64,000 nucleotides of DNA from Acidobacteriota bacterium (GTDB lineage Bacteria > Acidobacteriota > Blastocatellia > UBA7656), in NCBI GenBank assembly GCA_016201275.1, contig JACQDB010000032.1, forward strand, positions 1 through 64,000, read 5' to 3'. Position numbers and translations under genes: made by a program. The notes beneath the pieces were generated by a model. That model was not told the origin of the DNA, searched no databases, and saw nothing but the letters and a program-made list of their open reading frames with translations. Positions 14,288 through 37,784 of this stretch are shown piece by piece; the stretch's first letter is position 1, and each line of letters begins with the position of its first letter.

Positions 14288-17200
14288 ATGGAAAACCCTC
14301 GCCACCCATCAAGTAAAAATAAGGAAGCAAAAACCAACCCGCGTGCCAATGGCGAGGCGCTACCGCAATTTGACCGCCGCATCTTCGACGCTTTGGCGCG
14401 CATCGCGCAAGGCGACTTGGGCATACCGCTCAACGGCGCGCACGCCGAATTAAAAGGCCAGAGCAAAGACCTGTTGCTTAATCTTGACGGGCTGGCGCGC
14501 AAACTGCGCTACATCGTAGGGCGTCTGCAACGCGCCGCCGATTCTATTGAAACCGTCGTTGGCGAAGTCCTGCGCGGCACTCAGACGCTGTCGGCCAGCG
14601 TCATTGATGAAGCCACCTCGGTTGAAGAAACCTCTACCTCGATTATCGAAATTAATTCTTCTATGCACTCGATAGGCGACAGCTTGCAATCTTTGTCGGG
14701 GTTGACGCTTTCGACTTCGGCTTCAATTATCAAGATGGCGTCTTCGATTATTCAGGTGTCGCAGAACGCCGACGAACTGGCGCAGTTTGTTGAAGAGACG
14801 ACTGCGGCTATCGAGCAGATGGCTTCGACGATTCGCACTGTTGCCGATTCCACCGAAGCCTTGGCCGAATCCGCCGAAAAGACGGCGCGCTCCATGCAAG
14901 CGATTGATGACTCGACGCGCCGCATAGACGAGTCCGTTAAAGAGACTACGGTGCTTGCCGAAGAGGTAGCGCGTTCGGCGGACGCAGGCAGCCAACTGGT
15001 AGCCGAAACCGCCGCCAGCGTTTCGAAAATCAAAGAAGCCATTGACGCGACTTCCGAAACTATCACCCGCCTGGGCAAACGCTCCGAACAGATAGGCGAA
15101 GTCACGCACGTCATTGACGAAATCGCCGACCGCACACATCTGCTTGCCTTGAACGCCGCGATTCTGGCGGCACAGGCTGGCCAACAGGGGCGCGGCTTTC
15201 GCATCGTCGCCGACGAAATCAAGGAATTGAGCGAACGCACCGCCGCTTCGACCAGAGAGATTGACGAGATGATAAAAGCGGTGCGCGAAGATGTCGTGGA
15301 AACCGTCGAGCGCGTAGTCGTCGGCGGACAACGCGCCGATGAAGGCGTCGAACTGGCTTCACGAGCTTCGGAATTGCTTGCTGAAATCCGCGAAAAGACC
15401 ACGCTTTCATCCGACCGCATACGCCAGATTGCCGACGCCACCGCCGTGCAGGCAGCCGAAAGTCACACTGTGTTAGAAGCTGCCGATCTGGTACGTCAAC
15501 AGGCCAGAGACATCGAACGCGCCACCAGCGAACAGGCCAAAACTTCGCGGCAGATTGGCGAACGCGCTTTGCACATGAGCGAGTTGACCAAGCAAGTGCA
15601 ACGCGCCACCGGCGAACAAGCCAAAGTGTCGCGCTCCATCGCCGACGCTATGGAAGAGTTGAGCCGCGTCGTCGAACAGATACGCACCGCTTCCGATGAA
15701 CAACAATCGGGCGTCGAACAAGTGGTGCGCGCTATCGAAACGATTAAAGAAGTCGTGGACCGCAATCAGGCGTCGGTCTCCGGCATCAACAGCGCCGTAG
15801 ATTTACTGGTGCGCGAAGCCGAATTGTTGAACCGCGAAGTCGAGGCTTTCACTCTGCCTGCTTCTGAACACGGCGGCCATTTGCGCTTTGCGTTGCGGAC
15901 GTCGCAACTGACTTTAGACCCGGCGACGGTCTCTTCGATTTCCCGCAACGAAGTCATCTCGAATATTTTTGAAGGCTTGGTGCAATTTGGCGAACGCGCA
16001 GAGATACGTCCGGCGATTGCTGAACGCTGGGAGATTTCCCCAGACGGTCGCACCTACACCTTTTACTTGCGCGAAGCGGCGCGCTTTCACAACGGTTTGA
16101 AGGTGCGCGCCGAAGACGTGAAGTATTCCTTTGAGCGCCAGATGCGACAGAATGAAATGTCTGCCGCCTGGGTGTTTCGCCCTTTGCTTGGCGCGGAACA
16201 ATTTTTATCCGGCGAGGCCGATAGCGTTGCTGGCATTCGCGTCATCAATGAAAAAGTGTTGAAACTCGAACTCGTGCAACCCGTAGCTTTTTTTCTTTCG
16301 ACCTTGTGCGTGGATTACGCCTACATCATCCCGCGTGATGAAGTCGAAAAAGCGACGCAGGATTTTGAGACCAAGCCCATAGGCTCCGGCCCCTTCAAAC
16401 TGGTCGAGCCGGTAAGCGGCAAAGAAGTGCAGTTGGAACGCTTCGTCAATTACTGGAATCCGGAATTGCCTTACATAGACCGTCTGACCATTCAGTACGG
16501 CTTGAGCGCCGAAGAAATCTTCGATTCATTTTTGCGCGGCGAGTTGGATTATGTCAGCGATTTGCCGTTGACTTATTTGACGGAATTTCGCCAGCGTGTC
16601 GGTGAGATTCATCTGCTCGAAGCCTTGCAATTACAGACGCGTATGCTGGTCTTTGATTGCGAACGTCCGCCGTTTGATGATCGCCGCGTGCGTCAGGCGA
16701 TTTGTTATGCGCTCAATCGCCAGCGCTTTATTCAAGAGGTCTATGCGGAGATGGCGGAACCGGCGATTGGCCCGATACCGCCGGGCTTGCTTGGTTACGA
16801 TGCGACGGAAGTGGCTTATCAATACGACCCGGAACGCGCCAAAGCATTGCTCGAAGAAGCCGGTTATCAAGGCGGCTTTGATACCGAAATCTGGTGGTCG
16901 GATTCGGTCTCTCCTACGGTTGAATGTTTGCAGGAAGACCTGGCGGCGGTCGGCGTTCGCGCAGAGTTTCGTTATGTAGGCTTGACCGAATTGCAGCGCG
17001 CTTTGCGTATGCGAGCGACGCCGATAGTCGGGCGCGACTGGTACGCCGATTATCCCGACCCCGATAATTTTACCTATGTGTTATTCAATTCGCGTAACAG
17101 CGATCTGTTCATAGGCACGTATTCAAACCTCGAAGTTGACCACCTCACCGATGAAGCGCGTTCGGTGTTGGACAGGGAACAACGCGCTCTGCTTTATAGA

Positions 17201-17365
17201 GAAGTGACGCGCTTGTTGATTGAAGATGCGCCCTGCGCTTTCCTGGCGCATCGCCGCAGTTTCGTAGCCCACCGCGCCGACCTCGAAGGCGTAGCCTTGC
17301 ATTTGCTGTCGCCCTTCGTGACCCCGAAAGATTTGTGGTTCGCCAAAACCGGCGAGAATCGCTGA
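14288..17365 (+). CDS. Cytoplasmic HAMP-like/chemoreceptor signalling protein fused to a family 5 solute-binding domain
   Basis: 1025 residues with no signal peptide and no membrane segment. Residues ~25-80 (LARIAQGDLGIPL, then LDGLARKLRYIVGRL) resemble a HAMP unit. A long coiled coil with heptads follows, and residues ~275-335 are a chemoreceptor tip: EIADRTHLLALNAAILAAQAG then GRGFRIVADEIKELSERTAAS. From ~530 to the end is an SBP_bac_5 (OppA/DppA-type) domain: HLRFALRTSQLTLDP, RPAIAERWEISPDGRTYTFYLREAARFHNG, VKYSFERQM and IGSGPFKLVEP. Known chemoreceptors meet such binding proteins across the membrane; here both are on one cytoplasmic chain. It may sense an imported peptide or other cytoplasmic ligand and signal to CheA/CheW. 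No che genes are nearby. The ATG at 14288 has no clear Shine-Dalgarno. Confidence 0.88.
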   Translation: MENPRHPSSKNKEAKTNPRANGEALPQFDRRIFDALARIAQGDLGIPLNGAHAELKGQSKDLLLNLDGLARKLRYIVGRLQRAADSIETVVGEVLRGTQTLSASVIDEATSVEETSTSIIEINSSMHSIGDSLQSLSGLTLSTSASIIKMASSIIQVSQNADELAQFVEETTAAIEQMASTIRTVADSTEALAESAEKTARSMQAIDDSTRRIDESVKETTVLAEEVARSADAGSQLVAETAASVSKIKEAIDATSETITRLGKRSEQIGEVTHVIDEIADRTHLLALNAAILAAQAGQQGRGFRIVADEIKELSERTAASTREIDEMIKAVREDVVETVERVVVGGQRADEGVELASRASELLAEIREKTTLSSDRIRQIADATAVQAAESHTVLEAADLVRQQARDIERATSEQAKTSRQIGERALHMSELTKQVQRATGEQAKVSRSIADAMEELSRVVEQIRTASDEQQSGVEQVVRAIETIKEVVDRNQASVSGINSAVDLLVREAELLNREVEAFTLPASEHGGHLRFALRTSQLTLDPATVSSISRNEVISNIFEGLVQFGERAEIRPAIAERWEISPDGRTYTFYLREAARFHNGLKVRAEDVKYSFERQMRQNEMSAAWVFRPLLGAEQFLSGEADSVAGIRVINEKVLKLELVQPVAFFLSTLCVDYAYIIPRDEVEKATQDFETKPIGSGPFKLVEPVSGKEVQLERFVNYWNPELPYIDRLTIQYGLSAEEIFDSFLRGELDYVSDLPLTYLTEFRQRVGEIHLLEALQLQTRMLVFDCERPPFDDRRVRQAICYALNRQRFIQEVYAEMAEPAIGPIPPGLLGYDATEVAYQYDPERAKALLEEAGYQGGFDTEIWWSDSVSPTVECLQEDLAAVGVRAEFRYVGLTELQRALRMRATPIVGRDWYADYPDPDNFTYVLFNSRNSDLFIGTYSNLEVDHLTDEARSVLDREQRALLYREVTRLLIEDAPCAFLAHRRSFVAHRADLEGVALHLLSPFVTPKDLWFAKTGENR

Positions 17366-20173: not shown

Positions 20174-21856
20174 TTACACTTTTCTCACAGGTTTCTTCGC
20201 TGGAGGCGAAACTTCATCGCCGTTCGTCAATGGATTGAGAGAGGGCTTCTCTCTCTCAGCTTTCTTTGCTGGAGGAGTAGAGGCGAGAGGCTCTGACTTC
20301 TGGGCCGCATTCGCATCGCTTTCTCCTTGAGCAATTTCCCGCTGAGATTTTGATGAGCCATTTTGAGATGACAGAGAGTTGGGGGGTATCGCTTTATTTT
20401 CTTTCAGTGAGAGTAACGCATTGAAAAATACGACAAGGAAGAATACTTCACAGATATTAGCAAGTGAGCAAAGGAATTTGGCGTAGTCTGTGATTGGTAT
20501 GATGTCACCATATCCTGTGGTTGTGATGGTATAATTAGCGAAATAAATATAGTCCAGAAGTTTAAGAGTTGCATTATTCTCTACCGGCTTATTGCTTGGC
20601 GCTGGTATTTGTGGAGTATATGAAACGGCTTCTATTGAAACATCAACAGTTCTTTCGCTATTTGATTTATTTCCATCTGAAGATAATAAAATATCAAACA
20701 TTGGTTTTTTCGGCTCATTTGACTCTGAAAAGCATATCCATTCCACGTTACACCATTTGTTTCCACTTCCTTCATAAAGTTTTTCAACCAATCTATGCTT
20801 TAGATTATGGGCTCTTGCCTCTGCCAATTCATAATTAGATGGGTAGTAGCCGCCACTGGGCGTATCATCGGCATGACCAACCAAAATAACGCGAGCCTGA
20901 AAATTTTTGTCGGTGATTGTTTTTATTTGCTGTACGGCCTCCTCTAACCTCCGATTGTTTTCATTCATTTTATTTGCGATATCAAACATCTCCGGCCTGT
21001 TATTGGAAATTGTCGCTGTCTTTACGGAGGGATTATTTTTTTCCTCAGCTAAAATAGCCTTACCCTTATCGAAATCAAAAGTATTCGTCCATTGAGGTAA
21101 GTTATCAGAAGGAGTGGGAGGATTTTGCCCTTGACTGGTTGCCGCCGTATCTGATCTTTTTGAAGGGATAGTATCTTGATTTTTGAAATATTCCTTTGCA
21201 TAGAGAGCGTGATTTCCATGGGTTTGGCTCTTATCGTGAAAGGCGAAGGCGAAGCCAAATAGGTATGAAATTATCAGAAAGGTGGTGAAAAACAGCATTA
21301 CCGCGATAATAGACTCCTGCGAAGCTGCAGCCTTTAATCGGAGAAGCTTTTCTTTGCTACTAACTATTTTTTCTATTAACCATTTTTTGAATCCCCTATT
21401 GTTTTCTTCACCACCGCTTCTAATTATCTCCTCACTATTTAGGGGAATCATGGCGGCTATGGTCATGATCACCACAGCTATGACCAAAATAGCGATAATA
21501 ACTAATGCAAAACCAGAATTGATCTCAGTATCTTTGCTAATAGCCACATAAAGTATCCATAAAAATGATTGACCGCATCCACCAATTGTCATCACAGCAA
21601 GATAGAATTTATGGAACGCACTGATATTTGGCTCTCGGTTTTTTGAGTATAAAATCAGCCCTCCAATTAATTGAATTAATATTGGAACGCTAAACAGAAA
21701 GATCAGCCAAATAGATTCTTTTTCTTCCTTGTCTGCCTTACTAAACACCTGACAACTTATCGCTGCTATATAAAAAAAGAGGCAAGCTGTTATGCAACTA
21801 AAAGAGACTGCCCCAAGATGATCGGAAGGGTTATTCGCCTTATTTTGCTTTTCCAT
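20174..21856 (-). CDS. Potassium-channel-like membrane protein with an OmpA-type domain inserted before the pore
   Basis: 560 residues. Four hydrophobic segments lie within residues ~12-135. A fifth at ~190-215 leads into a soluble region (~260-410) with OmpA/MotB features: RVILVGHADDTP, then NYELAEARAHNLKHRLVE. After it, residues ~430-480 are a pore helix with the selectivity filter TTTGYGD (residue ~447) and a final membrane helix. If residues 190-215 are the outer channel helix, the OmpA-type domain sits in the periplasmic turret where it could touch peptidoglycan. The C-terminal ~70 residues are basic and cytoplasmic. The ATG at 21856 is preceded by AGGAGA. The gene is last in the locus, 173 bases after the ZorB-like gene. 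That gap contains only a weak CACTC..GAGTG inverted repeat. Confidence 0.82.
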   Translation of the reverse strand: MEKQNKANNPSDHLGAVSFSCITACLFFYIAAISCQVFSKADKEEKESIWLIFLFSVPILIQLIGGLILYSKNREPNISAFHKFYLAVMTIGGCGQSFLWILYVAISKDTEINSGFALVIIAILVIAVVIMTIAAMIPLNSEEIIRSGGEENNRGFKKWLIEKIVSSKEKLLRLKAAASQESIIAVMLFFTTFLIISYLFGFAFAFHDKSQTHGNHALYAKEYFKNQDTIPSKRSDTAATSQGQNPPTPSDNLPQWTNTFDFDKGKAILAEEKNNPSVKTATISNNRPEMFDIANKMNENNRRLEEAVQQIKTITDKNFQARVILVGHADDTPSGGYYPSNYELAEARAHNLKHRLVEKLYEGSGNKWCNVEWICFSESNEPKKPMFDILLSSDGNKSNSERTVDVSIEAVSYTPQIPAPSNKPVENNATLKLLDYIYFANYTITTTGYGDIIPITDYAKFLCSLANICEVFFLVVFFNALLSLKENKAIPPNSLSSQNGSSKSQREIAQGESDANAAQKSEPLASTPPAKKAEREKPSLNPLTNGDEVSPPAKKPVRKV

Positions 21857-22029: not shown

Positions 22030-22722
22030 TTACAGCTTATAAAACAACAGCAATTCAATGCGGCGATTGCGGCTCTTGAGTTCAGGCGAGCGATTATCCT
22101 GAAGCAACTTCTCGCTGTTGTATGGCACTTCGGCGGAGCGTTGCACCGGTTTGAATTCGCCGAATGAAGTGGCCGACATCAAGTGTTCCGCAGGGTCTAT
22201 GCCTACGCTCTTTTGCAGAAACTCGAATACCTGTATGGCGCGCATGGCGGCCAATTGAGTATTGGATTGAAAGCGTCCGGTGCGGTCGGTGTCGGCGTGG
22301 CCTTGTATCTGTATCTCTTTAATCAGCGGCAACTGTTGTTTCAAGGCTGCGCCTACGGTTCGCAATATCTCTTCGCCGCGAGGATTCAAACGATAATCAT
22401 CGGGTTGAAACAACACATGATCGCTGAAAGTAATCTGTTGCAGCGTCGGCTCGTTTTTAATGATGACATCATCAATCTTGGGATCAGCGATTGAAATACC
22501 AAAGACATCTTTGCTGAGCGCTTTCGCTTCTTTGCCATACGATGAAGCAATGGCTTGCACCATGTTCTTCTGGTTTTTATCCACCTGGCTGAGGTCAACT
22601 GCGCCCACCGAAATCACCGCCGCCACCAAAGCCAACACCAGCACCAGTAGCAACACCAACGCCAGCATTAAATCAGCAAATGAAGGCCAGAAATTGAAAT
22701 CTAAAATATTTTCTTCTTCCAT
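22030..22722 (-). CDS. ZorB/MotB-like OmpA-domain stator subunit
   Basis: 230 residues. The N-terminus DFNFWPSFADLMLALVLLLV is the MotB/ZorB pattern: one membrane helix with a proton-binding aspartate at its start (Asp17 from this ATG). The C-terminal OmpA domain has IQGHADTDRTG, NTQLAAMRAIQVFEFL and the terminal NRRIELLL, which bind peptidoglycan in this family. Translation starts at an ATG whose A overlaps the last base of the upstream stop (TAATG), with GGAG in place; a TTG at 22737 is also in frame. Tight coupling to the MotA-like gene is as expected for a stator pair. Confidence 0.9.
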   Translation of the reverse strand: MEEENILDFNFWPSFADLMLALVLLLVLVLALVAAVISVGAVDLSQVDKNQKNMVQAIASSYGKEAKALSKDVFGISIADPKIDDVIIKNEPTLQQITFSDHVLFQPDDYRLNPRGEEILRTVGAALKQQLPLIKEIQIQGHADTDRTGRFQSNTQLAAMRAIQVFEFLQKSVGIDPAEHLMSATSFGEFKPVQRSAEVPYNSEKLLQDNRSPELKSRNRRIELLLFYKL

Positions 22723-24797
22723 TATTTGCGTCTCCAAAAAGTAACCTTATCCAACACTCGCCTGCCGAAAGAGACTTCCTCTTCTGCAAAGGTTTCCTTG
22801 CGGCCAACAGTCGTGGTGTATGGACGCGGGGTTTCGCCCGTTTGTACGGGAGGCGGCACAAGCGACTGACTGTTTGCGGATTTCGTTTGATACACCGGCG
22901 TCCCCGTAGGGCGCGGCGTATAGCCATCACCGCTATATGCTTGACGCGGCTGATTGACGCGACGCCCAATGGTCTCCACCTCTTTTTCGATCACGTTGAT
23001 TTTGCGAACCACGGCTTGCACCAGATCGCTTTGCCCTTTGCTGACCAGGCCAAGTTCTTTGAGCGCCACAACCATCTGTTTATTGGTTTCTTCGAGACCT
23101 TTCATCTGCTGCAAGTAGCTGCCGGAAAAATTCAACGCCTTGCCGAACTCCAATATGCTTGTGCCAAAGATAGCGAAATTCTGTGACAGATTGCCGAGGT
23201 CTTTGCCGGTCGCCTGAAACACTTGATTCGACTGCGCCAGGACTTGCAGCAGACCGGCAATTTGCGTGTTGGTCTTTTCCAGATGATTCAACTGGGCGTG
23301 ATTATTTTCCATCTGTTCACGCATCTCGCGCTGCAATTCTTTGGCGACGATATCGGTGCGCTTGTCAAAATTCTCTAGCGACGAAGAGATGTGATCGGCG
23401 GCGGTCTTGATCGGCGTATCGAATTTCGCCAGCCCGCTTTGCACCTCTTTCAAGCCCACCTTCAAGGTTTCGGCCACGGTTTCGAGGTTGTCGTTCAAGC
23501 CCTCTTTGATCTCGCTCAAGTGCTTTCGCAATTCCTCGCGCAGCGGTGCGCCGAGCGCTTCGATCACTTCCTGATTGCGTGCCTCGATGCCTTGAAAGGC
23601 GTTGTCTGCCGCCTGCAATACTTTTTGCAAATCTTCATCCAGCGTGTGGCGCGATGCGATGAAGGCCGACTCGTAGCTCTTCAAACCGGTCAGCAATTCT
23701 TTGATCTGGTGGTTCTGTTCGTCGAAAACTGCTCTGGCGCTTTGTTGAAAACTCTCGGTGTTCTTGATGTTTTCCTTGACGCTTTGCTGGAAACTTTCGG
23801 ACTCGCCGGTCATCTGTTTGTAGAGCGCTTGCAAATCACTTTGGAAAGGCAGCAACGCGCCTACGCCTTCCACAAATTTATCGGCGAACTCCTTGATCTG
23901 TGCAGAAGCTTTGGTCAATTGTTTCAGGGATTGGCTGGCATCCTTGACGCTCTGCTGCAACTCTCCGGCTTCGTTTTGAATGGCGGTGGAAAACTTCGCC
24001 ACGTCGCGCACCGATTCCAGATTCTTCTGTATCTGCTCTTCGCTCAAGGCCAGCGTGCCAAGCAGTTTCTGCGACGTGGTAGGGAAGAGTTGCGGAATCC
24101 ACACCGTCAAAGTTAAATGCTCCAGCGTGTGTTTAATCGGCGCGCACACCAGATTGAGATAGAGGCTGAAGAGAATCACGCCGCCAATCGTGCAGATGAT
24201 GCCGAGGATGCTGGGCGCAAAAGCGCTTTTCAAATGGCTCAACAGATTGGCGAGGTCTTGCGAAAGCAGATCTTTGGATTGTTGCGCGCCGCCCGGTGCC
24301 AGGTGCGACAGTTGCGCCAGCGAGTCGGCCAGGCCAAAGAGCGTGCCGAGCAAACCCAGCACAATGAACAGCGCCAGCACCGAACGCAATATGCCATGCC
24401 ATTGAAAGAGTTTGTTGGTCGTGTGTTTGATCAACTCTCCGGCATCCAGTCGTCCGTCTTCGACCCCGGCTTCATAAATCGCTTGGATATGTTTGGGAAT
24501 AAGGGCGCTTTGCTTGAGCGAGCGATATTTACAAAACTGTTGAAACATTCCTTTGACGATTTCCAGAGTGGGTTGACTGGAAGCCTCGCCGCTCTTTGTT
24601 TTTTCCACCATCCAATCTTTGAGCGACGCGACCAGAGGCCGAACATTTTCGCATTGAAGCATCTGCTTGCGTTGTTGTCTCAGCCACAGACCATGAAGAA
24701 GCAAGCCGACCAGCCAGGCCCCGGCAAGCATCCAGATCAGCGCAATCACCCGCAACGCGAGGAGGTTTTCGGGGTAAAAATAGTTTGAAAAATCCAT
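22722..24797 (-). CDS. ZorA/MotA-like proton-channel subunit with long coiled-coil tail
   Basis: 691 residues from the ATG at 24797 (AGGAGA upstream); the 61-codon extension to 24980 overlaps the previous gene and is rejected. The first helix is at ~13-39. The MotA/TolQ/ExbB core lies at ~125-220: ILRSVLALFIVLGLLGTLFG and SILGIICTIGGVILFSLYLN. A ~450-residue tail rich in Gln, Glu, Lys and Leu heptads follows, as in ZorA of the Zorya defence system, where a long cytoplasmic tail projects from a ZorA5ZorB2 motor. The C-terminal ~100 residues are Pro/Thr/Ser-rich. In flagellar MotA the tail is absent, so the protein is closer in layout to ZorA. Known Zorya effectors ZorC, ZorD or ZorE are not seen nearby. 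Confidence 0.88.
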   Translation of the reverse strand: MDFSNYFYPENLLALRVIALIWMLAGAWLVGLLLHGLWLRQQRKQMLQCENVRPLVASLKDWMVEKTKSGEASSQPTLEIVKGMFQQFCKYRSLKQSALIPKHIQAIYEAGVEDGRLDAGELIKHTTNKLFQWHGILRSVLALFIVLGLLGTLFGLADSLAQLSHLAPGGAQQSKDLLSQDLANLLSHLKSAFAPSILGIICTIGGVILFSLYLNLVCAPIKHTLEHLTLTVWIPQLFPTTSQKLLGTLALSEEQIQKNLESVRDVAKFSTAIQNEAGELQQSVKDASQSLKQLTKASAQIKEFADKFVEGVGALLPFQSDLQALYKQMTGESESFQQSVKENIKNTESFQQSARAVFDEQNHQIKELLTGLKSYESAFIASRHTLDEDLQKVLQAADNAFQGIEARNQEVIEALGAPLREELRKHLSEIKEGLNDNLETVAETLKVGLKEVQSGLAKFDTPIKTAADHISSSLENFDKRTDIVAKELQREMREQMENNHAQLNHLEKTNTQIAGLLQVLAQSNQVFQATGKDLGNLSQNFAIFGTSILEFGKALNFSGSYLQQMKGLEETNKQMVVALKELGLVSKGQSDLVQAVVRKINVIEKEVETIGRRVNQPRQAYSGDGYTPRPTGTPVYQTKSANSQSLVPPPVQTGETPRPYTTTVGRKETFAEEEVSFGRRVLDKVTFWRRK

Positions 24798-24816
24798 CTC
24801 TGTTTTCTCCTGCTCG

Positions 24817-25980
24817 TTATTCGCCCTGACCAAGTTGAAGCTGTCCCAGTCGTACAAACTTCCAGGTTTGTTTGTCACTTGATTCAAAGATCGCCGCTTG
24901 AGGCACTCTGACCCGGCGATAGCGCAGGCGCGGATCATAGTCGGGGCAATAAAAAACTTCGCCCATCGCATCGGGACCAAAGCACGATTGACGAAAGGTT
25001 AAATCGAAACGCGGTACAACGACATATTGATTCGGGCTTACATTGCCAAGTTTCACGGCATAATAATCGCCATCCGTAGCGCTTTGAAAAATCGGTTCAA
25101 GCGAAGAATCTTTGTGCCGCTGCAAGGCGTTGTGAGTACCAAAACGAATCGGGGCATATTGCTCGCGGAAGGCTTGGCGTAGCGACGCATCGTCAGCCGC
25201 TTGGTTGTACAACACCTGAAAAATTTCCAGATCAGCAGCGTGCGAAGGCTTCGCGCTTGGTTTCTGCGGCGGCGGCTCTTCGTGCCGCAGCGGCGTGTTT
25301 ATCGGTGCTTCGTGAAGAGGTGGCGGGGTTGTCGCGTCTTCCTGTAGCGCTTGCCTCTGGTTCAGAATAGCTTGCGTTGCTTGTTTCAGGATCGCTTCGA
25401 TCTGTAGCGGCGTATGGCTAGGCGTTGGGTCTTGAAGCGACTGACTTTGATTCACCGCTTTTTGATATAGCCGTTGCGTCGTTCCCGTTCCGTGAAACGG
25501 CGTGGGCGTTTTCGCTGCGTCTTGAAGCGGTTGTTTCGATAGCGGCTCTTCCTGAAGTGGTGGCCTGTTTGTCAGCACTTCGGGAAGTGGATCGGTATTG
25601 CCTCGCTTTTTTTTCTTCTTCGTCGTTTGCGAATCGAAAGCTTCTGTCTGTCGTCTGAAGGTTCCGCCAGATTGTTGGTATGAAATAGCGGTTTCGTCAT
25701 GAGGGGGCCATTGACCGGCACGATTGAAGGCTCCTGATTCAGGGGGATCCGCTGGGCGATATTCCCGCCAATTGAAATAATATAAGAGGCCGACAAAAAT
25801 TAATCCGCCGAAAGCAAATAACACCAGGATGCCAAAAACAAAATAGAGAAAAGCAAAGCCCACGTTTTCTGCTTGGTCATTCTCAAGCAATCGCACGCCG
25901 ATGAGAATCACCAAGCTTGAGAGAAAGACGTACAGCAATATCTTGATAGCGGAAAGGAGTTTGTCAGTCGTGTCATTCAT
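24817..25980 (-). CDS. Two-TM protein with Pro/Gln-rich linker and conserved C-terminal domain (paralogue 1)
   Basis: 387 residues. Two membrane helices (~10-32 and ~38-68) lead to a low-complexity linker (~75-245) with repeated PLQE/PLQD and PPPLHE-like units. A C-terminal domain of about 140 residues follows: NQAADDASLRQAFREQYAPIRFG, DGDYYAVKLG, VVPRFDLTF, LRYRRVRVPQAAIFES and GQLQLGQGE. The same helices and C-terminal domain form the next protein in the locus, so the two arose by tandem duplication. I do not recognise the domain; its beta-rich pattern suggests a binding module. It ends 19 bases before the ZorA-like start. Confidence 0.8.
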   Translation of the reverse strand: MNDTTDKLLSAIKILLYVFLSSLVILIGVRLLENDQAENVGFAFLYFVFGILVLFAFGGLIFVGLLYYFNWREYRPADPPESGAFNRAGQWPPHDETAISYQQSGGTFRRQTEAFDSQTTKKKKKRGNTDPLPEVLTNRPPLQEEPLSKQPLQDAAKTPTPFHGTGTTQRLYQKAVNQSQSLQDPTPSHTPLQIEAILKQATQAILNQRQALQEDATTPPPLHEAPINTPLRHEEPPPQKPSAKPSHAADLEIFQVLYNQAADDASLRQAFREQYAPIRFGTHNALQRHKDSSLEPIFQSATDGDYYAVKLGNVSPNQYVVVPRFDLTFRQSCFGPDAMGEVFYCPDYDPRLRYRRVRVPQAAIFESSDKQTWKFVRLGQLQLGQGE

Positions 25981-26049
25981 ACCGTTTCCAAGTTATAGGC
26001 AATGACGCTCGATGCCTTCAAATATCCCAACGAATTTTCAATCATCCAA

Positions 26050-26940
26050 CTATTCGCCCTGACCAAGTTGAAGCTGGCCTCTGCGTCCGGGGACTAGCTT
26101 CCAGGTTTGTTTGTCCTGTGATTCAAAGATCGCCGCTTGATGCACTCTGACCCGGCGATAACGAAGTTGAGGATTAAATTGCGGGCAATCAAAAACCATG
26201 CCCATCGCGCCGGGGCCGTAGCTTGATTCCTGAAAGGTCAAATCGAAACGCGGCACAACAGCATATTGATTCGAGTTACCCAGTTGTATAGCGTAATAAT
26301 CGCCATCGTTGGCGGTTTGAAAAATCGGGTCTATAGAAAAATCTTCGCGGCGCTGCATTGCGTTACTCGTGCCGAAGCGAATCGGGTTGTATTGATTGCG
26401 GAAGGCTTGGCGTTGTGAAGTATCGTCAGCCGCTTGATTGTAATGCTCCCGAAATATTTTGTACTGTGCAGAGGTTGAATACTTGGTGATTGATTTCTGC
26501 GGTGTCGGATGTTTTTGATGGTGAGACGACCTATTTATTGATTCTTCTTGAATGTTTTGAGTATTTCCCTGCGATGCATTATCCGAAACGACGGGGACAC
26601 CTACTGATGGCGTTTGATTTCTGGTTTCACCATCCGATTGCGGTGCAGGCGGTATGGGCTGGTTAGTTGGCGTCCAATGCGGGATTAAGGATTTAAATTC
26701 ATATCCACCTGACTGCCGCTCTTCCCACCAACTGATAAGAAATGCAAAGCTAACAAAAAGTAGGAGTCCCAAAGCACATAAGGACAGGATGCCAAACACA
26801 ACATAGAGAAAAGCATACCCCAGGTTTCCCTGATCTTCGTTCTGAAGAATGCCGACTCCTATAAGAATCACGACGCACAGAATGAAGATAATCAGGAGTA
26901 TTGGAATTATTCGACGAAGATCGTCAGCCATACCATTCAT
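26050..26940 (-). CDS. Two-TM protein with conserved C-terminal domain (paralogue 2)
   Basis: 296 residues from the ATG at 26940, preceded by GGAGAG; the TTG at 26952 is rejected. Two membrane helices (~10-33 and ~40-70) are followed by a short polar linker and the same C-terminal domain as the adjacent gene: NQAADDTSQRQAFRNQYNPIRFG, DGDYYAIQLG, VVPRFDLTF, LRYRRVRVHQAAIFES and GQLQLGQGE. The linker is only about half as long as in paralogue 1 and lacks its PLQE repeats, so the linkers have diverged faster than the terminal domains. The function is unknown. Membrane placement suggests an adaptor for the neighbouring machine. Confidence 0.8.
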   Translation of the reverse strand: MNGMADDLRRIIPILLIIFILCVVILIGVGILQNEDQGNLGYAFLYVVFGILSLCALGLLLFVSFAFLISWWEERQSGGYEFKSLIPHWTPTNQPIPPAPQSDGETRNQTPSVGVPVVSDNASQGNTQNIQEESINRSSHHQKHPTPQKSITKYSTSAQYKIFREHYNQAADDTSQRQAFRNQYNPIRFGTSNAMQRREDFSIDPIFQTANDGDYYAIQLGNSNQYAVVPRFDLTFQESSYGPGAMGMVFDCPQFNPQLRYRRVRVHQAAIFESQDKQTWKLVPGRRGQLQLGQGE

Positions 26941-27050
26941 ATAGCTCTCCAAGGCAATGCTTTGCTAATTGTTGTGCTGGAAAGTGGACTGTAATTCAGC
27001 ATTGCTTTAAGCAGCAGACAGCTTTTCCACAATTCCTCTTACCGCCCCTG

Positions 27051-30000
27051 CTACGCCGCCCAGTCTTCGGTTTTAATCTCTAACAAACTCTTCACCGCTA
27101 GAATGAAAATTGGTTCGACGTTGATAGATTCTGCATCTTCAACTCCCTTCAAATCTAACAACTCGTTGACGATCTGTGATCGAATCTCGCGCAGCAGATT
27201 TTTATCTACCTTGAGTTTGGGAATCACAGAATTTTGTGAAGCGGTGTAGTCATTAAAGGTTTTCAGGAAATCATCCAGACCGGGCATTGCTTCCGGCAGT
27301 GACAGACCTTGTTGCAACATCGTTGCCGAAAGCAACTGGTCCCAATTTTGTTCTTCTCCATTCTCCAAAAAACTTTCTCCGACCAACACCCCCTGCTCGC
27401 CATCCTGCTCGAATTTCAATTTGTCATCGCAAACCAATCCATAAGCTGCTTCGGCTTTCGGTATTGAACTGATCCTGATCTTGAAATCTTCTTTCTGTCC
27501 CTCGAAACCCGAAGCACGCAATAACATCTCTTTGAACAGATTATTAATTGGGCTTTTCTGAGTGTATTTTCCAGCATCCAGCCAATGAAAAAGGCGCGAG
27601 CCGTTGCCGCCAACATAGATATTGGGAATCTGCCGTTCGTACTTGCCTTGCGCCACTAAATATTTCAACAGCAAGCCGACGTAATAAAAGATTCCGGATA
27701 AGCCGATGGCGATCAGTTGCGCGAATTGTTGCACCTCTTCTTTGCCTGCATGGTTGGGAAGTTGGTTCAACCATTGATCGCCTTCTTTATTGATAATCGC
27801 ATCGGTTTTGGCGTAAAAAGCCGCACGATTTCCTTGCACCGCTTTCAATCCGCTGACATCCGGCACAAATTTGCACAGGCTCAGAAAATCGGGATTAGCG
27901 CGTAGCAGATTCAAAAACATATCGCGCCCGGCCATCTTCAAAGAGGTTTGCCAGCACATATTATTTTTTTGCCAGATAGCAATGTCCGAAGTGCTGCCGC
28001 CAATATCTATGCAAACGGTTCCGGTAGCTGTAGAAGCATTTTCATAGTTTTTGAAGAACAAGGCCGAAGACATACTTTCGGTTTTGCTAGTCAACTCTGC
28101 ATCTTTCGTCAGGCCAGTCAACTCCGAACAGGCTTGCGTGATTTTCATCCACGTCTGTGGAAAGCCCTGCCGCAGCTTAGTCGGAAAGGCGGTTGGAAAC
28201 GAGTACGCCCAGTTGATGTGGCGCGCTTGTTTGGCGGCGACTTCGGCGGCGGCTTGCAAACAAAGCTGCAATAAAAACGCCTGCGCCCGATTGCGGTCTT
28301 CATCGCTGACCGACCATTTCAAATCGGCGGCTATGCCTGGCGCATTCGATTGAAACGCTTTGTAATCGAGCAGGTAATAAATATGTCCATCCAGCAAGGG
28401 GCGAATTTCCTGACCCCTGTCTTTGGCCGAAACCGAGCGATGTTGAAAGTCCTGAAACAAGCTTTGAAACGGCGTCTCTTGTTGTTCGCCGGGGAGGAAA
28501 TGAAAATACATATCGGTGCGTTTCTGCCCGGAAGCGGTCACTTGCAAAAAGCGCTTTTCAAACTTGATGGCGACCGGTTCATTCGCGCCTTCCCGCGCAT
28601 AGACATTGGTATTGGTTGCGCCGAAATCTATGCCTACGCGATAGGTCTTGGTTTGCGTAGGCAGGTCGTCGGGTTGGTCCAACAAGATCACCCCTGCCTC
28701 TGTGGTCTCCATCTTTTTGGTATCGGGATTGGCGGTTTGCGATTGGCAAATCATAGCTTCGGGAAAGATATTCATCTGCGTGACGAAGCGTTCAATTTCA
28801 CCGCGCTTGTTCTTGAATTCCTCGCGCCCGGTCTCGGCGCTGGCGGGATAAGGCTGGGCGAAAAACGATTCTTCACCGGCGTTGTTGTAGTAGGTGAAGT
28901 AAGCTTTCCAGCTTCCGTCCTGAGTCTTGAAGTTCGGCCAGACTTCCAACACCGGTGGGCTGCTGATCGGATAGGCGATGCTTTCGTTTTTGGCGCTGAA
29001 CACTTTGCTCACCAGAAAATCTTTGCCCACGCCTGTCGGCCCCGACAGCGGCACAAACAGTTTGGCGATGATGTCGTCGCCGCTCTGCTCGAAGTGAAAA
29101 CGATTGGCGAGTTGTTCTGGCGTCAAGTATGCCAACAGCTCTTTGTTGAGCGGTAAAATCGGCGTCACCACATCGCCTTGGTAGGTCAAATAGTCAGCCC
29201 CCTTTGGGCGATTGGCTCCCGGAAAAGCATTCTCTTGATTGATGACAAAAAGTTTTTCGGTGAAAAAATCTTCGGGCTTCCATTTCTCCAAATGGTTATG
29301 CGGAACCCCGCCGATGAGATGGCGCTGGTTGGCGGTGCTGCTATAGGCATTGCTTTCGGTATCGAGCATCGCGCCGCCCCACACCACGATGTCGTGAGCT
29401 TGCATACGCCATTGTGTGGCTATCGAGGGATCAACCACGAGAATCTTTTTTTCCGGGGGCGAGGTCCTGGATGAGCGCAGGAGAACGTGCGATTCGGCGG
29501 CATCACCGTTGCGGCTTTCGACCGGCTTGCCTATGTATTCGAAGATGCCCAGCATTCCCATGCTGGTTCGTTCACTGAGGGTGACGCTGATCTCTGCGCT
29601 GCCGATCAACTCCTCTTTGAAAACCGTCAGGCGCTGGGACAAGTCACGCCATTCGCTGCCTTGTCGTTCCAGCCAGGGGTGGCTATTCAAGCCCTTGATG
29701 ACTTCGGCGAGCCAACCGGCCAGGTATTTCCGTTGTTGATCGGCGAGTTTGCCCGTAGGGTCTTCCAGATAACGACCGCCGTACCAGGGGACGTTGTGTA
29801 TGCGGTCAAAATAATCTGTCGCCGTCGCCACCAAAGTTGTCGGCGAAGTCATGCCAATCGGCTTGGCGTTGAACAACAGCACATAAAGTTTGTTCCAACT
29901 GGTATCTCTGGAGAGGCTGCGATTGGGCACCAGTTTCGACAAGGTGTGGAGGAAACTGGGCGTGGTGTTTTCTTCAGGCGCTGCCGCATTTTTATCCAGC

Positions 30001-30335
30001 ACAGGAAGGTTCACCTCTTTGACGTTGAGTGCCGAAATGCCGCGCACCTCTTTGAGCGCCAGCAGCGCCAGCAAGCCGCGCCATTCGCCCACAATGCGTT
30101 TGTGCAGCAGATGATTGTGATCAAACAGCGCCATCTCAAAGAGCAAAGGCCGCGCCCACATATCGGGAATCGAGTTGATGTCGAGTTCTATCTTTTCGAC
30201 TTTTAGACTCTCGCTGACTTTGTAAATTTCATCGGCTTCGCGTTCTAACCACTTTCCGGCCTCGTTGAGATTCGACACCGAGCCGTCTTCTTTGAGTCGC
30301 GGTAAAACCGGATGATGACTTTGTTCCTTCGACAT
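27051..30335 (-). CDS. Large actin/Hsp70-fold ATPase (possibly SrfB-like)
   Basis: 1094 residues. From about residue 565 the three nucleotide-binding motifs of the actin-Hsp70 superfamily are present: phosphate 1 YRVGIDFGATNTNVYA (~570), phosphate 2 VCIDIGGSTSDIAIW (~778) and the adenosine motif IYVGGNGSRL (~907). The N-terminal half is unfamiliar and contains SGPTGVGKDFLVSK near ~435, which looks like a P-loop except that Asp replaces Ser/Thr after the lysine. Overall size and the C-terminal ATPase recall SrfB-type proteins, but this is a guess. It has no signal or membrane helix and is cytoplasmic. It follows the tubulin-like gene by 53 bases, with GGAGA before its ATG. Confidence 0.82.
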   Translation of the reverse strand: MSKEQSHHPVLPRLKEDGSVSNLNEAGKWLEREADEIYKVSESLKVEKIELDINSIPDMWARPLLFEMALFDHNHLLHKRIVGEWRGLLALLALKEVRGISALNVKEVNLPVLDKNAAAPEENTTPSFLHTLSKLVPNRSLSRDTSWNKLYVLLFNAKPIGMTSPTTLVATATDYFDRIHNVPWYGGRYLEDPTGKLADQQRKYLAGWLAEVIKGLNSHPWLERQGSEWRDLSQRLTVFKEELIGSAEISVTLSERTSMGMLGIFEYIGKPVESRNGDAAESHVLLRSSRTSPPEKKILVVDPSIATQWRMQAHDIVVWGGAMLDTESNAYSSTANQRHLIGGVPHNHLEKWKPEDFFTEKLFVINQENAFPGANRPKGADYLTYQGDVVTPILPLNKELLAYLTPEQLANRFHFEQSGDDIIAKLFVPLSGPTGVGKDFLVSKVFSAKNESIAYPISSPPVLEVWPNFKTQDGSWKAYFTYYNNAGEESFFAQPYPASAETGREEFKNKRGEIERFVTQMNIFPEAMICQSQTANPDTKKMETTEAGVILLDQPDDLPTQTKTYRVGIDFGATNTNVYAREGANEPVAIKFEKRFLQVTASGQKRTDMYFHFLPGEQQETPFQSLFQDFQHRSVSAKDRGQEIRPLLDGHIYYLLDYKAFQSNAPGIAADLKWSVSDEDRNRAQAFLLQLCLQAAAEVAAKQARHINWAYSFPTAFPTKLRQGFPQTWMKITQACSELTGLTKDAELTSKTESMSSALFFKNYENASTATGTVCIDIGGSTSDIAIWQKNNMCWQTSLKMAGRDMFLNLLRANPDFLSLCKFVPDVSGLKAVQGNRAAFYAKTDAIINKEGDQWLNQLPNHAGKEEVQQFAQLIAIGLSGIFYYVGLLLKYLVAQGKYERQIPNIYVGGNGSRLFHWLDAGKYTQKSPINNLFKEMLLRASGFEGQKEDFKIRISSIPKAEAAYGLVCDDKLKFEQDGEQGVLVGESFLENGEEQNWDQLLSATMLQQGLSLPEAMPGLDDFLKTFNDYTASQNSVIPKLKVDKNLLREIRSQIVNELLDLKGVEDAESINVEPIFILAVKSLLEIKTEDWAA

Positions 30336-30388
30336 AAGAATTTCTCCTTCTTAAAAATTCACGGTGGGCATAATGCTCTGAGCCGACT

Positions 30389-31873
30389 TCAATCTTCCCT
30401 ACATTCGCGATAGAGCGCGTGAATAAATTTGCCGACGCCATCGGCATCATGGTCGCGCACTCTGGCATTGCACACGCGCTCCCACAGGCGCGTCAGTGCG
30501 TGAGCATGGCTGTCGGGATTGGCCAGGGTTAAGTTGTCGAAATCGCCGCTGCGGAAATCGCGCTTCAACTGCATGGCCTCTTTGCCGCCTTCGCTGCCGT
30601 TGACCTTCTGCGCGAAAGCGTTGTAGTTAATCAAGGCGACGCTGGCTCCGCTGGCCGAGCCTTGCAGGTTGGCCAACCATAAGAGCAGGCTTTGGCAATA
30701 CTCTTTCACCTGTAGCAACTCGCTGACCATCGCCTTTTGCAGATCAATATGGCGACGCTCAAAAAAATCTATGTACCAAGGAGCGCGATAGCCTTTGCCG
30801 TGCTGATGTATGTCTTCCAACATAGGGTAGTAAGAACCGAGATAGGCAAAGGCGAAACGCGCCAGTTGATTAAGTTTCTGATGCAGTACCTGCTGCCCTT
30901 GAAAATATGGCAAGTCGTTCCAGGTTACGCTGCTGGCTTGTTGACGCGCCACTAAAGAATACTTCGTCGGATTCTTGCGCCCGAAGAAATCAAGACAAGC
31001 AAGCGCGGCATACAGTTCCATAAAATGCGGCTCGTTGCGTTGCGACCTGCCGCCTATGCTGGGCGCTTTCATAGGGCTGAGTTCCTGTTCGCCCAATAGA
31101 TAAACCGCATCGTAAATGCCCAACTCGTCCTGCTGATGGTAATACTTCAATGCCGCTTGGGTATTGAGCAAAAAATCTTCGGCATCGGCGCGGAGTTTTT
31201 CATCGGTGACTGGCGAGAACGAAAAATAGGGAAGCATCAAAATGCCGCCGACTTTGGCATTCTCCTGGCCAATCTTTTTCAATTCGTTGTGAATCAAGCG
31301 GGCAATGGTCGGCACGCCGGACGCCCCCGTGCCGCCGAAGATCGAGCCGATTAAAATAATCTTTGCACCATCTTCGGCGCGCACATCTTGCCCGATCTTT
31401 TCACGAAAGGTTTTCCACGGCTCGCCCTTGCCAAGTTCAAGTGTATTCGCCATCACCGCCGCGCCTATCGAAGGATGCCCGCGAAAGCCTTTCTCCAAAG
31501 AAGTAACCTTTTCCACAGGGCTATACAACACATCGAACAGATGCGCCGCGCCTGCATCGTTCATCTTCAGATTGGTATAGCGAAAGAATTTTTCCAGCGT
31601 CGGATTGGCATCGTTGAAGGGCGACCAGACGCCGGGTTTCGCCACCGTGACAGGCGTCTTGAATAAATCCGTAGCGCCAAGTTTCAACTGCTGGCAGCGG
31701 GTGTATTGTTGCAGGGTAATCTCTGCTCGTTCTAAACTGCCGTTGGCTTTGTCTGGGTCAACAAAGAGCGTATAAAGCTCGCCCTCCGGCATCAATCCGG
31801 CGGCGCATAGATGGGTCAACGCCTCTACGCATTTCGCGCCGGTTCCGCCTATGCCGATTATGTAATATCTCAT
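30389..31873 (-). CDS. Tubulin/FtsZ-like GTPase
   Basis: 494 residues. The N-terminus MRYYIIGIGGTGAKCVEAL is a Rossmann-type GTP-binding start as in FtsZ and tubulin, followed by LYTLFVDPDKANGSLERAE. Near residue 180, GSIFGGTGASGVPTIARLI is the tubulin-family G-box (GGTGxSG). The rest is not FtsZ-like in sequence and is longer than FtsZ, so this belongs to a divergent branch. Such FtsZ-like proteins have been proposed to drive membrane remodelling together with VWA and OmpA proteins. It sits between the RHS gene (41 bases) and the actin-fold gene (53 bases); AGGAGA precedes its ATG. Polymer formation is inference. Confidence 0.85.
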   Translation of the reverse strand: MRYYIIGIGGTGAKCVEALTHLCAAGLMPEGELYTLFVDPDKANGSLERAEITLQQYTRCQQLKLGATDLFKTPVTVAKPGVWSPFNDANPTLEKFFRYTNLKMNDAGAAHLFDVLYSPVEKVTSLEKGFRGHPSIGAAVMANTLELGKGEPWKTFREKIGQDVRAEDGAKIILIGSIFGGTGASGVPTIARLIHNELKKIGQENAKVGGILMLPYFSFSPVTDEKLRADAEDFLLNTQAALKYYHQQDELGIYDAVYLLGEQELSPMKAPSIGGRSQRNEPHFMELYAALACLDFFGRKNPTKYSLVARQQASSVTWNDLPYFQGQQVLHQKLNQLARFAFAYLGSYYPMLEDIHQHGKGYRAPWYIDFFERRHIDLQKAMVSELLQVKEYCQSLLLWLANLQGSASGASVALINYNAFAQKVNGSEGGKEAMQLKRDFRSGDFDNLTLANPDSHAHALTRLWERVCNARVRDHDADGVGKFIHALYRECRED

Positions 31874-31914
31874 CGCTGTTCTCCTTGTGATAAAAAAAGC
31901 TCAATCTGCCGCGC

Positions 31915-34900
31915 TCATTTCGCGCCCGGCACGATGCGCTCTTCGCGCAGGTAGCCCGTCGCTTTGTCGTACAGGAATTCGACACATCTGCCATCGGGAA
32001 GCTTGATGCGGCGCACGCGGTTGTCTTCATACGTCAAAGCGGTCTGCGCCTGATTTGCGCCGATCACTTTATGCAATTGACCGTTGGCGGACAATTCAAA
32101 AGTCTTTTCGCCGCCATAAAAATTTCTTTGTACCACTTGATCTTCGCGGCTCAAGTCCACACCGCTGCGGCGTCCGTCTTTGCTGATTTCAATCGCTTTC
32201 AAACGATTGTTCGCCTGATAGGAATAATTCATAGACGCGCCATCGGGAGTTTCCAGTTTCGCCGGTCGGCCTTCCCCATCGTATTGACAGCGCAGGGCTG
32301 CGCCTTGATGAATCAAGGCGGTTTGCTCTGCGCCTCGGATTTCCTGCAACGCGCCAAGCGCGGGGTGTGCGAACGTGGTCGCTTGTTGTTGGCTATCGGC
32401 GTGCATCTCCAGAACGTCGCGGTCGGGGCTTTCCGGGGCGCTGCGGCGATAGCGTATGAGGTTGCCAAGGCCGTCATATTCGTAGCGCTCGCCGTAGCCG
32501 CCTTCATAATTGATCTCCGTGAGTTGGCCATTTTCGCCATACTGATATTGTGCTACGCGGCGATTGTTGATCAGCATTTCGGTGAATTTTCTATCGCTGT
32601 CAAAACGCATTTCGGTGCGGTTGTGGCGCGGGTCTTGCACAACGATTTTGCTTTTATCGGCTGCCGCTTCCCACTTTGCTTGACCGCCGTTTGCCAAGGT
32701 CGTCTCCGCGCTGACCAACTCGCCGTTGTTGTCGTACTTGTATAGACTGGCAGCGCGTGTGTGATCTTCGGTGCGCGTCAAACGGTTCTCTTTGTCGTAG
32801 TATTTTTTGACGAAGCGTTCGCCCTGTTTGTCTATCAGCACTTTGCCGTCGGCAGTCTTTTCGACGCTGCGCGACACCTCCTCAGCTTGATGAGCGGTTT
32901 GTTTCAACAGGCGTCCGGCGGCGTCATAAACATTTTCGATCAGCGGCTCATCATTCTCTAAAAGTTTGATAAGCAGTCGTCGCTCATCATAGCGATAATC
33001 GAGATTGCGGACGCCGTAACGAACGTGCGCCAGATTGCCCGCTTCGTCATATTCATAGTGCGTTTTTCGCTGACCGGAGGAAATGGCGATGAGTCGGCCT
33101 GCGTCGTCGTACTCGAAAGTCAGTCGCCAACTGACTCCAAGACAGCCGGAAAAACTGATTTGCGCGAGTTGGCCTGCGGCGTTGTAATCGTACAGAGCTG
33201 TGCTGAAGTCATGCTCGGTAGCGGTTGCCGACGAGGAATTTTTTTCCGCCATCGAGGAAGCTTTTGCTGTCGAAGGCGACGCCGTTTTCCCCTGCGGGCT
33301 GGCGCTTTTGCTTATGCCAACGCCAACGCCAGCACCAGCGCCAGCCGTTGATGAATTTGGGGCGCGATTTTTTTGGCAATCATCAGTCAGCACGGCGCGC
33401 AATCTGCCGGTTGAATCGAAGAGCCATTGTTGATGGGTTGCTGTAATCAGGCGGTACAAGCCGCCGCTTTCCGCGTAGAGCGCCTGAAAATTGGACTGCG
33501 GATTTTTCGGTATGAAGACGATGCGTTGCAAGCCTTGATCAATGTGATATTCATCGAAACGCTCTTGCCGCAAGCCGAACGGGTCGGTGAGGTGAAAGCG
33601 TTGCACCAGCGTTCGCGTCGCGGCGTTGCCTTCGACTTGAACATATTGCAGGCGTTTGGCTACGGTGGCTTCGCTGTGCGCCGAGTCGTAGCGCTCGGAA
33701 GCGTTGGCGGCTTCGTTGTCTTGCGGCCTTTCAAATTCGAGGCGCGGCAACAGCATACTCCATGAATGACCGAATTCCGACGCTTCGTTATGCGAGGAGT
33801 TGTAGTAGCGCGCCAGTCCCGGAAGCTCATTTGCGACCTCCAGCCAATCGGCGATTTCGCTTTCAACCGCGCTGAAACTTGCCAACTCGCGTTGTTGACC
33901 GGGGAACAAGGCGACCGCAACATAGGTTTTCTTGTGATGCTGAAAATCGAAAGCGGCTTGGTCTTGTTGACGCGCTGCGGCCCAGGCTTTCTTGAATTCA
34001 TCGCCGAACTGATTGGCGTTGCTATCGGTTTGCAGGCGCACCTCCATATCAACGCCGCCAAACGAGGTGAGCCGTCGCGTCAAGGTGCCGCGTCCAGTGG
34101 TCTGAGTTTGCGTCTGTTCATAAAACGCCGACGGGGTGATTTGCGGCGTCGGATAGGGCGCAAATAGCTGCACGAAATTCCAGTCGGCGGGAATGTTTTG
34201 CGAGTACATCCATTTGGCTATGGCGACGGCTTGCGTTACCTGTTTCAACTCTGCGAAGGTCGGGTGTTCGTTGGCGAACTCTTCATAATGACTGGTGAAA
34301 TGCGCGGCGAAGGCTTCGGCCTGGGGGTCGCGTATGCCGCCAGCGGATACCAGTTTGCCGCCACTCCACTGCATAGTTTCGGTCTTGACGCGCAGCTTGA
34401 CAGGATCAAAGAGGATGGCGTTGCCGCCTTCATTCAAGTGCGCGGTCACCGGTTCGGGAACTAACCAAAAACGATTCCACAATTCCGGCCCCTGATGCCC
34501 TTGTGTAAAACTCATTTCGGCAAGGCTGCGATAATCGGGAACCGCCGAGGTCACTTTTTCTCTGGTGATATTATCCGCGCCGACGCTGTAGCCTTTCATC
34601 AAGCGGTCGCACTCGAACATCACCCAGCCGAGCCGGGTGTTTTCGGTGTTGCCAAAAAATTTCACCAGCATGGTCGGCCCCATAGGGTTTTGTGGATGCG
34701 GATCAATCGTCATGCCGGGTTCATAAGGACTGGCGGAATAGACGGCGCGCATAGCCGCCGCCAGATACTCCGGCTTCAAGGGCGGCAACGCGGTATTCTT
34801 CTCGCCGACCAAAATTAATTGTCCGCTATCGCGGTCATACATGGCGCCGTTGATGGCTCCCATCTCGCCTATGACTTTCGCCGCCTGGTCAAGATATACG

Positions 34901-37047: not shown

Positions 37048-37300
37048 GACTGCCTCCTTCCTATCGCTACAAAAAAAATGCTTTCATCGAGCCGTCGCCA
37101 AAAAGAAGTGGTGGAGGCGCTGAGGTACGAGCAAGCGGCAGGCGGCAGCCTTCACGAGTTAGCGCCTGATGAATCTATGGTGCATCAAGTGCAGCCAATC
37201 AAACTGCTCTGCGGCTCCAGCGTTCGGGTTGGTCGCGGCCAGCGCTGCGGTTGAACGCACCGTTTGCAACGTCGCGCCATTTGGCTGCTGTCGGGTTTTG

Positions 37301-37768
37301 TTACCAGTGCCGCAAAGCTTTGGCACCAAGCGGCGTGTACTTAAAAGCCGAAGGGGAAAACCACACTGTCGCCAGATAAAAGCACAACAGCCAGTTCACG
37401 CCATAAAAAATATAGGCGTAGATCGCCCCTTCCTGAGCCTGTTCGGTGAACCAGATTCCCAGTATCACGGCAACCACAGGCACAAACAACATCACATACC
37501 ACAAAGGGCGCTTGTAGGAGGCCGACCATTGATCGGTGTGAAAACTCCATTGCCCCAAAATGTACCAGAGCAAGGCCGAGGCCCAGGATGTGACAATGCC
37601 TATCGTTCCCCAGCGCTTGAAACTGTCTAGCCAATCTTCAAGCGTCACGTTCGCCGGTGGCACGACCCGCTCGTACAGCCACAACTGCCCTTCCAGAAAG
37701 AGCAGGAATAAAAAATAGATGAGTAAGGCGATGACGATCATTCCGACGATATTCAACAGATGCCGCAT
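37301..37768 (-). CDS. Small polytopic membrane protein
   Basis: 156 residues from the ATG at 37768 (AAAGGAG upstream); the longer frame overlaps the VWA gene and is rejected. Four hydrophobic segments are seen: ~5-27, ~50-72, ~88-108 and ~115-137. The motif FTEQAQEGAIYAYIFYGVNW lies in the last helix pair. It has no family I recognise. It starts 16 bases after the VWA-like gene and is followed by 253 bases with no gene before the RHS start, so it is probably co-translated with the lipoprotein. Confidence 0.75.
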   Translation of the reverse strand: MRHLLNIVGMIVIALLIYFLFLLFLEGQLWLYERVVPPANVTLEDWLDSFKRWGTIGIVTSWASALLWYILGQWSFHTDQWSASYKRPLWYVMLFVPVVAVILGIWFTEQAQEGAIYAYIFYGVNWLLCFYLATVWFSPSAFKYTPLGAKALRHW

Positions 37769-37784
37769 AGCTGCTCCTTTCGCT

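Follow-up and report, generated by a model that had tools for sequence, protein, structure and literature searches.

On the reverse strand of the window, the 64,000-nucleotide stretch of DNA analyzed here, an intact open reading frame of 560 amino acids (P0001; positions 20174–21856) encodes a potassium-channel pore with an OmpA-like domain inserted in its turret, as proposed in the initial annotation. The start codon is ATG, with the ribosome-binding site AAAGGAGA ahead of it, and only one copy of the gene was found in the genome. According to hydropathy and the AlphaFold2 model, the chain consists of four transmembrane helices, a basic loop, S5, the OmpA-like insert, the pore helix and S6, in this order.

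The four N-terminal membrane helices, identified by hydropathy and AlphaFold2 secondary structure, occupy residues ~17–146 (21419–21808, reverse strand, as for all parts of the protein); by the same two approaches the Arg/Lys series is absent from the fourth helix, so that no voltage sensor is recognizable. S5 (residues ~181–208; 21233–21316; hydropathy, AlphaFold2) is preceded by a basic, presumably cytoplasmic segment, loop 135–182, containing 9 Lys/Arg. The OmpA-like peptidoglycan-binding domain, with the sequence GHAD330...LAEAR348, occupies the turret between S5 and the pore helix (residues ~255–411; 20624–21094) and was detected by Pfam, NCBIfam, profile and Foldseek searches. The pore helix and selectivity filter follow (residues 433–451; 20504–20560; Pfam, PDB sequence matches, AlphaFold2). 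The filter TTTGYGD, expected near residue 447, is located at residues 445–451 (window 20524–20504), after helix 433–445 and before S6 (residues ~457–488; 20393–20488; Pfam, AlphaFold2), which corresponds to a TxGYGD filter behind a pore helix and between two transmembrane helices. The tail after S6 is of low complexity, and no RCK, cyclic-nucleotide-binding (CNBD) or ligand domain was recognized in it by Pfam. Since RCK and CNBD domains and S4 charges were not recognized, the OmpA domain is the only recognizable regulatory part of P0001.

Pfam Ion_trans_2 was found at residues 429–482 above the curated cut-off (E 3.1e-10; 40.2 bits against 22.5), and the closest PDB sequence matches of the pore are the Ion_trans_2-type potassium channels NaK, Lmo2059 and K2P. 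Pore helix, TTTGYGD and S6 are common to P0001 and these channels, but P0001 additionally contains an OmpA domain of 150–180 amino acids in the turret and four N-terminal transmembrane helices lacking S4 charges. P0001 is presumably a six-transmembrane, potassium-selective channel, which would assemble as a tetramer and conduct K+.

The turret insert and its homologues

Pfam OmpA was matched in the single sequence of P0001 at residues 301–358, below the curated cut-off (E 7.3e-4; 20.3 bits against 27.2), on the chain in which Ion_trans_2 passes its own; the match of the NCBIfam T6SS OmpA-type domain TIGR03350 at residues 277–360 (E 1.1e-6) is likewise below the cut-off. A profile of the insert, built from three homologues, retrieved 13 chains from the PDB at E <= 0.01, every one of which is of the OmpA/MotB/TssL type (best 4.5e-5). 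The AlphaFold2 model of the full chain is poor (mean pLDDT 44, pTM 0.29; alignment of three sequences only) and contains six long helices, pore helix 433–445 and a beta-alpha-beta-alpha-beta-beta order in the insert; the same order was obtained for the insert modelled alone (pLDDT 64.5, pTM 0.64). In Foldseek searches with the full chain and with the insert alone, OmpA-like peptidoglycan-binding domains ranked first (probability 1.00, TMt to 0.67), the best PDB match of the isolated insert being 3td5 (E 4.8e-5), in which the OmpA domain of A. baumannii is seen together with a peptidoglycan peptide. The region 260–410, assigned to OmpA in the initial annotation and placed there between a membrane helix and the filter, is thus predicted to be OmpA-like.

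The residues D330 and R348 of the motif GHAD330...NYELAEAR348 are invariant in all three full-length homologues. In A. baumannii OmpA, diaminopimelate is bound by D271 and R286 (PMC6572160), and, judging by the GHxD...R motif, D330 and R348 would be the equivalent Asp/Arg pair. Retention of this pair supports binding of the P0001 insert to peptidoglycan, as the initial annotation had stated for such domains. The insert is probably located on the periplasmic side, outside the membrane as previously proposed, since by the positive-inside rule the 9 Lys/Arg before S5 would lie in the cytoplasm. Fold and the motif GHxD...N-x-x-L-x-x-x-R are shared with OmpA/MotB/TssL domains, as is, in all probability, the periplasmic position after a transmembrane helix, whereas the P0001 copy is located inside a channel turret and theirs at the chain end. 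Recent copying of the domain from the adjacent MotB gene was rejected, as BLASTP detects no similarity between the two.

With P0001 as a single query, no further full-length relative was found in 396 genomes of the phylum; homologues came to light through an operon-based scan and when 162 genomes of the class were searched with a profile. Three full-length channel-OmpA proteins are encoded in these genomes, namely, that of the window and those of the loci L039 and L123. The two other genomes contain the same domain order in intact frames at 25–32% identity, which rules out a fusion artefact and confirms that the architecture is real and conserved beyond a one-off fusion. The protein of the Pyrinomonadaceae MAG (L039/G477; 27% identity) retains TTTGYGD. 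In the homologue L123:4830–6719 (G416:C859) the peptidoglycan-binding residues are kept and the filter reads TTNAAGD; therefore, the family as a whole does not retain potassium selectivity, and the L123 protein, keeping the tether without the potassium filter, may be non-selective or non-conducting. The linkers flanking the OmpA domain comprise 50 and 21 residues in P0001, 68 and 47 in P0003, and 72 and 70 in L123.

The fusion is absent from twenty other core-bearing genomes, which contain separate generic pores or OmpA proteins only, and a scan of genome contigs, plasmids and viral contigs with the channel protein gave no match. A pore-only remnant of the channel gene, adjoining a transposase resembling IS30, was observed at L124:11655–11927 (G408:C139). 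No protein of this domain order had been known to the initial annotation, and literature searches, which were not exhaustive, likewise revealed neither such a protein nor a channel whose turret carries an OmpA or a peptidoglycan-binding domain.

The operon around the channel and its conserved core

The strongest clue to the function of the channel is its operon, which the initial annotation did not include. All its genes are located on the reverse strand and are transcribed in the order VWA-like, 4-TM, RHS (insertion), tubulin-like, actin-like, membrane proteins B and A, MotA-like, MotB-like and channel. The intergenic gaps from the RHS gene to the MotB gene are <= 98 nt, the MotA and MotB genes share 1 nt, and 173 nt separate MotB from the channel gene.

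The exported VWA-like protein (37785–39119) contains a MIDAS-like DATLS motif and has homologues in 65/80 loci; it gave no match in a Pfam search, and the VWA assignment is based on motif and context. It is followed by a small multi-TM protein with about 4 TM (37301–37861; homologues in 74/80 loci), also a core member, and by an RHS/YD-repeat protein of 1,710 amino acids with an N-terminal membrane helix (31915–37047; Pfam RHS_repeat 3e-78). In this genome the RHS/YD-repeat gene is inserted so as to separate the 4-TM gene from the tubulin gene, and it probably stands outside the core, because other loci contain no gene of such size there. The tubulin/FtsZ-like GTPase of 494 amino acids (30389–31873; Pfam Tubulin_2 2.2e-11, 44 bits against a cut-off of 27) contains GIGGTG and GGTGASG, and the actin/HSP70-superfamily ATPase of 1094 amino acids (27051–30335; Pfam MreB_Mbl 6.9e-6, just below the cut-off; homologues in 90 loci) contains DFGAT, DIGGSTSD and GGNGS. 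Membrane proteins B (26050–26952) and A (24817–25980), the latter with TM helices and a conserved C-terminal domain, are paralogues. The MotA/ZorA-like protein (22722–24797, start taken as ATG 24797; Pfam MotA_ExbB 4.9e-4, below the cut-off; PADLOC ZorA 5e-5) carries a long coiled-coil-like tail, and the MotB/ZorB-like protein (22030–22722; Pfam OmpA 6e-14, PADLOC ZorB 6.5e-17) has an N-terminal helix with SFAD, containing the ion-site Asp, and a C-terminal OmpA domain. The NTPase, MIDAS-like, MotB Asp and peptidoglycan motifs of the operon are intact. Elsewhere in the window, a single ORF (14288–17365) combines a methyl-accepting chemotaxis signalling domain with an ABC-type solute-binding domain (SBP_bac_5).

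The set of VWA-like, 4-TM, ~500-aa tubulin-like and ~1,100-aa actin-like genes (window 22030–39119) was observed across many phyla, in dozens of genomes, with SAR11 and cyanobacterial plasmids among the carriers. Among 80 loci found via the tubulin-like protein, the actin-like gene is present in 78, the 4-TM gene in 74, the VWA-like gene in 65 and all four in 59, some loci being cut by contig ends; 13 loci contain a MotA-like gene, and 10 contain MotA together with MotB. Among the hosts of the core are Cyanobacteria, Poribacteria, Nitrospirae, Acidobacteria, KSB1, Veillonellaceae and Pelagibacteraceae. No description of the tubulin-actin pairing of the core was found in the literature, and the conserved four-gene core is possibly a larger finding than the channel itself.

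The channel is absent from most core loci, including most of those with MotAB. In L039 it follows MotA-MotB, in the same place as in the window, and in L123 it is located in the core, between the 4-TM and tubulin genes, with MotAB not seen on that contig; therefore, the channel goes with the core and not strictly with the motor, and the operon is the likely home of the channel-OmpA architecture. By eye, a secreted transglutaminase-looking protein with a C-terminal TM was noted in the post-MotB place in Poribacteria (L043:16600–17568; also L046, L047, L048, L050 and L051), and a second VWA-like secreted protein after MotB in a KSB1 locus (L041:19891–21132).

An ORF of 949 amino acids (L118:8431–11280; G254:C100), from another class of the phylum, contains a potassium channel (Ion_trans_2 1.5e-10) and a VWA-like domain with one more TM between them; its turret differs from that of the window channel and has no OmpA match. 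The codons from S6 to this TM include no ATG, GTG or TTG, so that a true channel-VWA fusion is likely. The fused ORF is followed by a small TM gene and has divergent MotB/MotA/VWA/actin/tubulin-like genes as neighbours. The pores of G254 and the window are reciprocal best non-self matches among about 390 genomes of the phylum, by a small margin (35.5 against 32.1 bits); the two channels may have entered the system in a single event or independently.

FtsZl1 proteins have been described with VWA and OmpA partners in membrane-remodelling operons (PMC2875224), and in both cases a Tubulin_2-type protein is encoded beside VWA and OmpA genes. The tubulin-like protein of the window, of ~500 amino acids, differs in lacking the extended coiled coil and helical C-terminus of most described members; the median open frame of its subfamily is 506 aa against about 1,000 aa for the Tubulin_2 matches of the phylum, and we treat it as a separate ~500-aa subfamily. 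The channel, MotA and the actin-like partner are not mentioned in the main text of that work, the supplements of which may list part of this operon.

Role of the channel

The best explanation, held with moderate confidence, is that P0001 is a peptidoglycan-tethered potassium channel serving an envelope-spanning cytoskeletal machine. The OmpA-type domain of the turret would tether each channel non-covalently to peptidoglycan, and the channel would be a subunit of an envelope-spanning system composed of the VWA-like protein, the small membrane protein, cytoplasmic tubulin-like and actin-like NTPases, the other membrane proteins and a MotAB/ZorAB-like ion-driven motor, with the OmpA domains of channel and motor anchoring the complex to the wall. 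In the mechanism considered most likely, the tension on the turret would be altered when the wall moves or is damaged or when the motor acts, and potassium flux and membrane potential would change as a consequence.

Gating of the pore by turret tension is speculative. The initial annotation, partly supported overall, had suggested a channel gated or positioned by the cell wall, and this is left as a hypothesis, as linkers of ~50 and 21 residues suit anchoring as easily as gating. Such long, flexible linkers fit a slack tether, effective just when wall and membrane separate, or simple anchoring, and for this reason anchoring is favoured over mechanical gating.

An alternative that we regard as possible, though doubtful, is that the OmpA domain merely positions the channel at the wall or in the complex, with the pore gated by other means or constitutively open. 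The unstructured linkers, longer still in the homologues, agree with this, as does retention of the OmpA residues in the homologue lacking GYG, and OmpA/MotB domains are anchors in general. However, no other gating domain is recognizable in the P0001 chain, and the domain is located inside the turret, from where a pull could be passed on to the pore helix, and not at a terminus. A more far-reaching reading is a tether-gated potassium channel, the outer mouth of which is pulled by the wall via the peptidoglycan-binding domain, with the signal coupled to the tubulin-like/actin-like NTPase and stator-type motor machine; in this full form the proposal is rather unlikely.

A role of the operon in anti-phage defence, along the lines of Zorya, with wall damage sensed by the MotAB-like complex and the channel acting as depolarizing effector, appears improbable. 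ZorAB is a peptidoglycan-binding motor of 5:2 stoichiometry that carries a cytoplasmic tail (PMC11890865); in the operon, too, the MotA-like protein has a long cytoplasmic tail, and its MotB-like partner, an OmpA protein, matches PADLOC ZorB models (6.5e-17). The ZorA match, however, is just 5e-5, NCBIfam ZorB1 and ZorA are far below the cut-off, no ZorC, ZorD or ZorE match was found among the operon proteins with PADLOC and NCBIfam, and tubulin-like, actin-like, VWA-like and channel genes are additional to the Zorya set. Filing the operon as a Zorya system was rejected on account of the missing effector genes and weak ZorA, and Zorya is retained as an analogy. A defence-island setting was also rejected, as PADLOC on 71 neighbouring genes, run without a control set, gave single hits only, mostly to UvrD-type helicase models. 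Moreover, the core is common in cyanobacteria and present in SAR11, which suggests a general role, and no depolarization was observed with Zorya itself (PMC11890865).

That an OmpA domain entered an ordinary potassium channel by chance, with no function, would suit the rarity of the fusion within the class, but is highly improbable given that the three genomes have retained its order, intact frames and invariant functional residues at such low identity, in the same kind of operon each time.

Ligands or voltage control the gating of known bacterial potassium channels, and membrane tension that of mechanosensitive channels. A wall-binding domain in the outer mouth of a pore provides a direct route from the state of the wall to membrane potential, and, through its genetic link to the channel, a widespread operon with tubulin-like, actin-like and motor-like parts, which has received little study, gains a measurable output, ion flux. 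If true, the tether-gated reading would mean that the extracellular matrix of a bacterium gates one of its ion channels.
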